Positions 6,626 to 41,462 of a DNA stretch of 46,323 nt are shown one piece after another. This stretch comes from a bacterium (lineage in GTDB: Bacteria > Patescibacteriota > UBA1384 > XYA2-FULL-43-10 > JAKAMI01): assembly GCA_021812945.1 (NCBI GenBank), contig JAKAMI010000006.1, forward strand, positions 1-46,323, given 5' to 3'. Position 1 is the stretch's first letter; the number at the start of each line of letters is the position of its first letter. The notes under the pieces are model-generated. The model saw only the letters and a list, made by a program, of their open reading frames with translations. It did no database searches and was not told the DNA's origin. Position numbers and translations under genes: made by a program.

Positions 6626-6662
6626 TAAAGACAGTCTTTCAAGGCAGTAAAGACTGTCTTTA
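6626..6662. repeat. Palindrome family C copy 1: 14-bp perfect arms taaagacagtcttt/aaagactgtcttta
   Basis: Read directly; 9-nt loop. Confidence 0.9.
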
Positions 6663-6676
6663 CAGAACCTGCCCCA

Positions 6677-6713
6677 AAAGACAGTCTTTGCCGCCCTAAA
6701 AAAGATTGTCTTC
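6677..6713. repeat. Degenerate second copy of family C
   Basis: aaagacagtctttg ... aaaaagattgtcttc; about 10/11 core pairs. Confidence 0.6.
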
Positions 6714-6727
6714 GCAGTCTCGAATAT

Positions 6728-7300
6728 ATGAGAAAACTAACTAATAAAGAGCTCCGCCTTGAAGCTGAAGCCCGTATAGACCAGCACTGCCACCTACGAG
6801 GTGGCAGTGCTGGTCAGAAGCCGGAAATCTATCTGGTTCTCGATAATTTGCGCTCTGTTTACAATATCGGAGCTATTTTTCGTACTGCCGACGCTGTCGG
6901 AGTCAAAAAGATCTACCTTTGCGGCATCTGCGCATTTCCTCCTAGGCCGGACCTTCATAAAACGGCTTTAGGAACTGAAGAATATGTTGAGTGGGAGTAC
7001 GTCGACTCGACACTTCAGGCGCTTAAGAAACTTAAGCGCCTGAAGTGTAAAATCGTTGCTCTCGAGCAGACGGACCAAAGCGATGATTATCGATCGTTAC
7101 AAGGGGTGACACCTCGCAGTATGAAACGAGGGGTTACCCCTTGTAAACTCGCCCTAGTAGTCGGCAACGAAGTCGACGGCGTCAGCCAGGAAGTCCTGGA
7201 CCTCTGCGACCAGGCCATCGACATCCCCATGGCCGGTTGGGCTAACTCCCTCAACGTCACCACAGCGCTGGGTGTGGTTTTGTACTCTTTTATTAACTAA
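6728..7300 (+). CDS. SPOUT (TrmH-family) RNA 2'-O-methyltransferase
   Basis: LDNLRSVYNIGAIFRTADAVG, LALVVGNEVDGVSQEVL, IPMAGWANSLNVTTALGVVLY. Confidence 0.9.
   Translation: MRKLTNKELRLEAEARIDQHCHLRGGSAGQKPEIYLVLDNLRSVYNIGAIFRTADAVGVKKIYLCGICAFPPRPDLHKTALGTEEYVEWEYVDSTLQALKKLKRLKCKIVALEQTDQSDDYRSLQGVTPRSMKRGVTPCKLALVVGNEVDGVSQEVLDLCDQAIDIPMAGWANSLNVTTALGVVLYSFIN
6779..6815. repeat. In-CDS palindrome (family A copy 1): gaccagcactgccacct-acg-aggtggcagtgctggtc, 17-bp perfect arms
   Basis: Read directly inside the SPOUT methyltransferase CDS. Confidence 0.95.
7010..7048. repeat. In-CDS palindrome: acacttcaggcgcttaag-aaa-cttaagcgcctgaagtgt, 18-bp perfect arms
   Basis: Read directly inside the SPOUT methyltransferase CDS. 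Confidence 0.95.
7097..7146. repeat. In-CDS inverted repeat, 20-bp arms with 2 mismatches (ttacaaggggtgacacctcg / cgaggggttaccccttgtaa)
   Basis: Read directly inside the SPOUT methyltransferase CDS. Confidence 0.92.
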
Positions 7301-7306
7301 TACACC

Positions 7307-8680
7307 TTGAAAGTGATAATCACCATCGAAAAACTTATTTTTGAAGGTTATGGTCTTGGCCATGTAGATGGCAAGGCCATTTTTGTCAGAAAATCGGTTC
7401 CGGGGGATGAGTTGGAAGTCGAGACGGTAAATATTAAAAAAAATTACGATGAAGCAATCATCAGGAAGATAATCAAGCCCTCCACCAAGCGCATTACCCC
7501 CAGATGTCCGTATTTTGATATTTGTGGCGGGTGTGATCACCAAAATATCTCTTACACCGATCAGCTCAAATTCAAAGATCAGATCATCGACGAAATGATC
7601 GAACAAAATCAAATTGAAACAGGGGAGCGTCTTCCGATAATTCCCGGCTCTGACTCTGAATATTTCTACCGCAACTCTATTCGCTTTGAATTCGTTACAC
7701 GACTGGTTGACCCGCATACTGCCACCTACGAGGTGGCAGCGCCAGTCTCAATCCAAATTGCGCGGCATAATTATTTGGATCCGGCGAAGCCGGTAATTAC
7801 CGACTTTTGTCTCTTGCAGTCTGAGTTTTCCAACGAACTATGCCAATCAATTCTTGATTTGTATAATAATTACGGCGTTCCCGATAACCGAAAACTGTTG
7901 GTTGATAACCATCTCTGGCAAATCAAAATTCGCGAGGGCAAACAGACCGGCGAATTTATGCTGGAAATGATTACCAAGAGCAGTACATTGCCTATGGAAA
8001 GAGGGTTGAAAGATCTGGTCAAAGCATTTCCCGAGATCAAATCGTTTTACCACACCATCGCCCCGGACAAAAATATCTACAAGCTAAAAAGACGGCTTCT
8101 TGCGGGCAAGCCGGTTATTTACGAAAAGATTGGCAAATATACTTTTCAGATCTCGCCGGAATCATTTTTCCAAACAAACTCTCTCGGCGTTCAAACACTT
8201 TACGATCAGATCAAAAACTTTGCCGACATCCAAATGGGGGATAGGGTTGTCGATCTTTTCTGCGGGACCGGAAGTATTGCCATATATCTCTCGACACTAG
8301 CTAAGTCAGTCATTGGAGTCGAAATAGTCCCCGAAGCCATCCGCGATGCCAAAGATAATGCTAAGATAAACAAGATCAGTAATGTCGAATTTCATTGTTT
8401 CGATGTGTCTAAACTCAACAATGAAACAATGTGGCAATATAGCAATGCAATTTTAGTTCTGGATCCGCCTCGTGCTGGTCTAAAACCTGAATTGATAAAA
8501 AAAATTTGTAAGTGTGATCCCAAACGAATCGTTTACGTTTCCTGCAATCCAGCCACCTTTTTTCGAGATATTAAAGTATTTAATAAATACGGTCTAGGAC
8601 TAACAAAGCTCCAACCAATCGACATGTTTCCTCAAACCCACCACATTGAACTCGTTGGACTCCTAGCGACAACACGCTAA
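7307..8680 (+). CDS. 23S rRNA (uracil-C5)-methyltransferase, RlmD/TrmA family
   Basis: N-terminal TRAM-like region, CPYFDICGGCDHQ Fe-S motif, VDLFCGTGSIAIYLS, LDPPRAGL, VYVSCNPATF. Confidence 0.92.
   Translation: MKVIITIEKLIFEGYGLGHVDGKAIFVRKSVPGDELEVETVNIKKNYDEAIIRKIIKPSTKRITPRCPYFDICGGCDHQNISYTDQLKFKDQIIDEMIEQNQIETGERLPIIPGSDSEYFYRNSIRFEFVTRLVDPHTATYEVAAPVSIQIARHNYLDPAKPVITDFCLLQSEFSNELCQSILDLYNNYGVPDNRKLLVDNHLWQIKIREGKQTGEFMLEMITKSSTLPMERGLKDLVKAFPEIKSFYHTIAPDKNIYKLKRRLLAGKPVIYEKIGKYTFQISPESFFQTNSLGVQTLYDQIKNFADIQMGDRVVDLFCGTGSIAIYLSTLAKSVIGVEIVPEAIRDAKDNAKINKISNVEFHCFDVSKLNNETMWQYSNAILVLDPPRAGLKPELIKKICKCDPKRIVYVSCNPATFFRDIKVFNKYGLGLTKLQPIDMFPQTHHIELVGLLATTR
7719..7739. repeat. In-CDS palindrome (family A copy 2): ctgccacct-acg-aggtggcag, with outer gactgg/ccagtc pairing at 7701-7747
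   Basis: 22-mer actgccacctacgaggtggcag (7718-7739) is identical to 6786-6807. Confidence 0.93.
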
Positions 8681-16857: not shown

Positions 16858-16922
16858 TGTCATCCTGAGCTTGCGAAGAATCTCTACCTACAGAATAGAT
16901 CCTTCGCAAGCTCAGGATGACA
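16858..16922. repeat. Inverted repeat with 21-bp perfect arms tgtcatcctgagcttgcgaag / cttcgcaagctcaggatgaca
   Basis: Read directly; an extra partial direct copy (ctttgactgtcatcctga) lies just upstream. Confidence 0.92.
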
Positions 16923-19751: not shown

Positions 19752-19780
19752 GTACTGTCCACCCGCCGGGTGGACAGTAC
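19752..19780. repeat. Palindrome family B copy 1: gtactgtccaccc-gcc-gggtggacagtac
   Basis: 13-bp perfect arms with a 3-nt loop. Confidence 0.95.
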
Positions 19781-30812: not shown

Positions 30813-30847
30813 ATCCTACTGTCCACCCGCCGGGTGGACAGTAGGAT
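30813..30847. repeat. Palindrome family B copy 2, 16-bp perfect arms, gcc loop
   Basis: Contains tactgtccacccgccgggtggacagta, identical to 19753-19779. Confidence 0.95.
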
Positions 30848-40742: not shown

Positions 40743-40776
40743 ATGACAGTCTTTTTAACACCATAAAGACTGTCAT
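40743..40776. repeat. Palindrome family C copy: atgacagtcttt / aaagactgtcat
   Basis: 12-bp perfect arms with a 10-nt loop. Confidence 0.92.
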
Positions 40777-41419: not shown

Positions 41420-41462
41420 ATAATGACAGTCTTTAATATGCACTTACAAAGACTGTCATTAT
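41420..41462. repeat. Palindrome family C copy: ataatgacagtcttt / aaagactgtcattat
   Basis: 15-bp perfect arms with a 13-nt loop. Confidence 0.93.

Follow-up and report, generated by a model that had tools for sequence, protein, structure and literature searches.

Dispersed REP hairpins probably inserted in frame into two adjacent RNA methyltransferase genes of a small patescibacterial genome

The window, i.e. the whole stretch of 46,323 nucleotides that was analysed, belongs to a Patescibacteriota genome of 0.91 Mb in 42 contigs. Two adjacent and intact RNA methyltransferase genes are encoded between positions 6728 and 8680, and the four palindromes that an earlier sequence-only reading had reported within them do exist at about the places it gave (6779-6815, 7010-7048, 7097-7146 and 7718-7739). 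The features of this locus are as follows:

6728..7300, + strand: SpoU/TrmH-type RNA 2'-O-methyltransferase gene, 190 aa, SpoU motifs intact (PF00588, 120.7 bits; 15-orthologue alignment)
6777..6819, + strand: F1 REP copy 1, near the SpoU N-terminus, in-frame DQHCHLRGGSAGQ (model R1, 47.8 bits, E = 6.6e-13 genome-wide)
7010..7048, + strand: perfect 18-bp palindrome encoding TLQALKKLKRLKC, in the SpoU gene, not an insertion (ungapped against 14/15 orthologues)
7094..7146, + strand: in-frame hairpin insertion SLQGVTPRSMKRGVTPC, in the SpoU gene (gap in the alignments with orthologues and with TrmH from the PDB)
7307..8680, + strand: RlmD-type 23S rRNA (uracil-5)-methyltransferase gene, 457 aa, catalytic SCNP motif intact (TIGR00479, 335 bits)
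7703..7738, + strand: 12-residue insertion LVDPHTATYEVA, RlmD residues 133-144, missing in 14/14 orthologues
7707..7751, + strand: F1 REP copy 2, in the RlmD gene, in another frame than copy 1 (model R1, 47.0 bits, E = 1.3e-12 genome-wide)

Within the SpoU gene, the segment 6779-6815 forms a perfect 17-bp stem closed by a 3-nt loop, 7010-7048 forms a perfect 18-bp stem, also with a 3-nt loop, and 7097-7146 is composed of two 20-nt arms, 90% complementary, around a 10-nt loop. The gene thus holds two perfect stems of at least 17 bp; the mean longest stem was 6.5 across synonymous recodings of this gene (n = 5,000), and only one recoding reached a perfect stem of that length, so these hairpins are far beyond chance. 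The RlmD protein scores well above the TIGR00479 cut-off (183.6 bits), matches PDB 5xj1 (E = 2.6e-53) and has a Peribacteria MAG among its best named relatives. Its palindrome (7718-7739) is a 9-bp apex, which is unremarkable by length alone; what is remarkable is its membership of the F1 family, whose model matches positions 7707-7751 (47 bits, E = 1.3e-12).

As the sequence-only reading had stated, one 22-mer is identical at 6786-6807 and 7718-7739 and is read in two different frames (HCHLRGG and TATYEVA, respectively). That reading had also proposed to search for the 22-mer in the genome and in its relatives. Allowing mismatches, three further sites were found in the genome, and a covariance model of the family, named F1 (model R1, 45 nt, built from 26 copies), retrieved exactly five genome copies at E <= 5e-10: two in genes, one overlapping a gene end and two intergenic. 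The family is present in 17 of the 55 genomes of the class, this genome counted, that is in 16 of the 54 others. Its apex, CACCT-ACG-AGGTG, is nearly invariant. In the 10-bp stem of the model, the five apex pairs never vary, whereas each of the five outer pairs shows changes in both arms, with pairing mostly preserved; this covariation amounts to 37 double-change cells, compared with 12.9 in shuffled alignments, none of 500 shuffles reaching the observed value. F1 is free of stop codons in five of its six reading frames. One F1 copy overlaps the 3' terminus of a short-chain dehydrogenase ORF on contig C1 (L150:2906-3796), whose final residues and stop codon it appears to provide. In the relative G025, an F1-like hairpin stands beside a second CACCT-N3-AGGTG palindrome inside a 149-aa TsaB-like-looking ORF (contig 3, L177:304-753, - strand).

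The same reading had proposed to check by alignment with orthologues whether the palindromes are insertions. Insertions were found for LVDPHTATYEVA in RlmD, for 7097-7146 and, as a lengthening, for the SpoU N-terminus, and not for 7010-7048, which aligns without gaps. In SpoU, the N-terminus exceeds that of orthologues with a comparable start by 7-9 residues (alignment with 15 orthologues), and the boundary of this insertion is uncertain because the region is variable among orthologues; the structural model of this protein, computed from two sequences, was poor (mean pLDDT 57.7) and was left out of the argument. In RlmD, LVDPHTATYEVA is unique to the present protein among the 15 sequences aligned, the closest of the 14 orthologues being 59% identical. 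The relatives compared came from outside the genus and the family, and a near-identical empty site was not seen among them. On the AlphaFold2 model of RlmD (mean pLDDT 90.3), the insert maps, as the sequence-only reading had suggested to check, to a low-confidence loop (pLDDT < 50 at residues 137-143) between two strands (residues 124-133 and 147-153), and is thus predicted to occupy a surface beta-hairpin loop.

A REP is a short hairpin whose copying depends on a REP-associated tyrosine transposase (RAYT), an enzyme of the Y1/HUH class with folded single-stranded DNA as its substrate. F1, with its 45-nt model and several copies, is a short (20-50 nt) dispersed palindrome of this kind, and F1 hairpins stand on both sides of seven Y1_Tnp (PF01797) genes in five relatives (G004 C14, G004 C32, G018, G039 C37, G039 C25, G003 C22 and G048 C16). 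Since it brackets RAYT genes in these five relatives, F1 is considered to be a REP family. In the present genome, no RAYT was found adjoining any F1 copy; five Y1_Tnp genes are encoded, each adjoining palindromes of its own family, and in a tree the C39 and C25 transposases are placed next to the clade that includes the F1-bracketed transposases, support being moderate (91/89). The Y1_Tnp gene of C39 (L147) has a hairpin of another family, F2, on either side within 30 bp, the two being nearly identical, and so forms a compact RAYT-REP unit. Those of C19 (L149) and C21 (L146) lie within arrays of inverted REP-like units (GTAGTCC.../...GGTCTAC and GAGTCC.../...GGTCTC) that resemble REPIN-type arrays. 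Classical REPs are marked by a GTAG tag at the foot of the stem (PMC8266576). In F1, GTAG occurs at the stem foot in only 4 of 78 flanks, and F1 was therefore not filed as a GTAG REP; GTAG spans the apex instead, on one strand.

A single family for all four palindromes was considered and rejected, as the arms at 7010 and 7097 match no other hairpin of the genome. The hairpin at 7097-7146 gives the SpoU protein about 11 residues that most orthologues and the solved TrmH lack. One arm of this hairpin has a single-arm relative in the genome, at C31:31612, and no matching hairpin was found elsewhere in the genome or in 60 relatives. This segment is probably another REP-like insertion, from a rare family.

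The palindrome at 7010-7048 is of a different nature. It is not an insertion, since the alignment is ungapped and a genome search allowing up to 3 mismatches yields no second copy of the palindrome. Its left arm encodes a sequence that is ordinary for the SpoU family, whereas its right arm has lost a glycine that 13 of the 15 orthologues retain, and its centre, CTTAAG-AAA-CTTAAG, is a small hairpin by itself. Perfect hairpins can be created by replication template switching (PMC8794818), and proteins can be altered by it (PMC8604942). A unique inverted repeat, an unchanged length and a small inverted-repeat nucleus fit this pattern, as judged from orthologues only. Template switching is thus probably the best explanation for this swap of residues at constant length: the polymerase would have switched template at the CTTAAG-AAA-CTTAAG nucleus and copied the left arm into the right one, making the palindrome in place. 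As in described quasipalindrome template-switch mutations (PMC7202029, PMC8604942, PMC8794818), an inverted repeat would have been perfected at constant length; unlike theirs, the event is deduced from orthologues and not from a close ancestor.

The reading that we favour, with a probability of about 0.85, is that F1 REP copies were inserted in both genes, that 7097-7146 is probably a rare REP-like insertion and that 7010-7048 results from a template switch. The two F1 copies would have entered in frame, one in the variable N-terminal stretch of SpoU and the other in the surface beta-hairpin loop of RlmD, and it is proposed that they persisted because five of the six F1 frames are stop-free and because both sites tolerate extra residues. 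A transposase would have moved the two copies here, and both proteins presumably still work despite their inserts. The dispersal of a DNA element into coding sequence, which the sequence-only reading had advanced, is therefore supported for the two copies of the 22-mer (a five-copy family, RlmD orthologues without the residues, RAYT flanks in relatives) and not for the four palindromes as one phenomenon, 7097-7146 being another in-frame hairpin insertion and 7010-7048 no insertion at all.

Several other hairpin families are encoded in the genome. F2 (CTGTCCACCCG-N-CGGGTGGACAG) flanks the C39 RAYT and resembles F1; two of its 12 copies lie within genes (a MiaB-like tRNA methylthiotransferase and a PEP-utilising-domain protein), and two occur in the window:

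19752..19780, no strand assigned: F2 REP, intergenic
30813..30847, no strand assigned: F2 REP, intergenic

The copy at 30813 was considered as intragenic and rejected, the overlapping 198-aa ORF (- strand) looking spurious. In the MiaB-like gene (C27, L302:452-1705, - strand), F2 and GACAGTCTTT-family hairpins stand side by side and are both read through, and a reading of the translation suggests a possible third repeat, TVIPDLIRNPDGTNLDPCLRGDDG. A 5'-3' exonuclease gene of the PolA N-terminal type (C2, L244:11879-13039, - strand) contains two in-frame TCATTCCCG...CGGGAATGA repeats, translated as HSREGGNLP...RGND, and a PEP-utilising-domain ORF (C23, L301:861-2033, + strand) contains an F2 hairpin read as VPTVHPPGGQLAG. 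The two genes of the window are thus not alone, since other families are read through in these three. The GACAGTCTTT family, which adjoins the Y1_Tnp gene of C30, also provides a hairpin within a 3,617-codon open frame of that contig (L247:9484-9515) and intergenic palindromes in the window (6626-6701, 40743-40776 and 41420-41462). A further dispersed family is represented in the window by a 26-nt inverted repeat, TGTCATCCTGAGC... (16858-16922), and is also found on contig 30 (L247).

That the REPs of this lineage provide new protein segments again and again, with a preference for genes of RNA-modification and nucleic-acid enzymes, so that a single small genome would make several proteins decorated by different REP families (two or three inserts each in the SpoU, MiaB-like and exonuclease genes), is a tentative idea that we regard as rather doubtful. 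Still less probable is a functional reason for the retention of the intragenic REPs, such as slowed translation, mRNA stability or a coordinated control of RNA-modification genes: the decorated genes do include three RNA-modification enzymes and the 5'-3' exonuclease, in parallel with DNA-repair and RNA-modification genes elsewhere (PMC3733652), but the insert sites, the frames and the families differ, and strong palindromes are mostly intergenic (15 of 64 lie in ORFs in a 305-kb sample including the window, the ORFs being defined by length alone and some of them spurious).

A coding-level coincidence or protein-level selection, in which the protein requires these residues and the palindromic DNA is accidental, is very improbable. 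A string of this kind can arise by chance: in the pyruvate phosphate dikinase (PPDK) of G004, CACCTACGAGGTG was examined as an F1 insert and rejected, its 9-bp F1-like stretch aligning with solved PPDKs without any insertion. For the two genes of the window, however, (i) orthologues lack the residues, (ii) the whole 45-nt F1 model matches, flanks included, (iii) F1 copies also lie between genes, and (iv) stems such as these almost never appear in recoded genes, chance being rejected by F1 family membership as well. In the QueH of G004, CACCTACGAGGTG is presumably a chance occurrence in coding DNA, judging from the general features of that protein family. That all the hairpins arose on the spot through template switching during replication, without a mobile element, suits 7010-7048 (constant length, self-complementary nucleus, unique in the genome) and is hardly credible as a general explanation, as it cannot yield five dispersed copies of one sequence or their association with transposase genes, and family membership refutes it for the two 22-mer copies.

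REPs translated as extra protein loops are a known, little-studied phenomenon, of which the insertions described here are a new instance. The sequence-only reading had named the Rickettsia palindromic elements (RPEs) as the precedent. They are a related case: described as palindromes inserted in frame into conserved genes of a reduced genome (RPE-1), they resemble the present situation, in which in-frame insertions are found in otherwise conserved protein genes. Here, by contrast, RAYT genes are flanked by the family in relatives. Precedents also extend beyond the RPEs, since intragenic REPs have been reported in several bacteria, frequently in genes for DNA repair and RNA modification; RPE-4 and RPE-6 of Rickettsia are counted among them and have been classed as CGTC REPs (PMC3733652). 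In agreement with that reading, no account of REPs or RAYTs in Patescibacteria was found in the open-access literature searched.

The intragenic GTAG/CGTC REPs (Di Nocera et al. 2013, PMC3733652) are likewise read through in ORFs, often at N-termini or in DNA-repair and RNA-modification genes, and some genes are hit more than once; F1 differs from them by a stem foot without GTAG or CGTC tag. Compared with REPtrons and RAYT-REP systems (PMC2817692, PMC8266576), a hairpin-bracketed Y1 transposase gene, a separate REP family per transposase and, as in the S. maltophilia REP, a stem of about 16 bp with a 3-nt loop are shared, whereas F1 has no adjacent RAYT in this genome and is conserved at its apex rather than in a 5' tetranucleotide. 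RAYT-REP systems and the read-through of REPs as protein are thereby extended to a lineage of very small genomes. For this case, names can be given to the element family, to the transposase that accompanies it in relatives and to the residues that were inserted, and the decorated enzymes, compared with and without their inserts, offer a direct test of the neutrality of such inserts.
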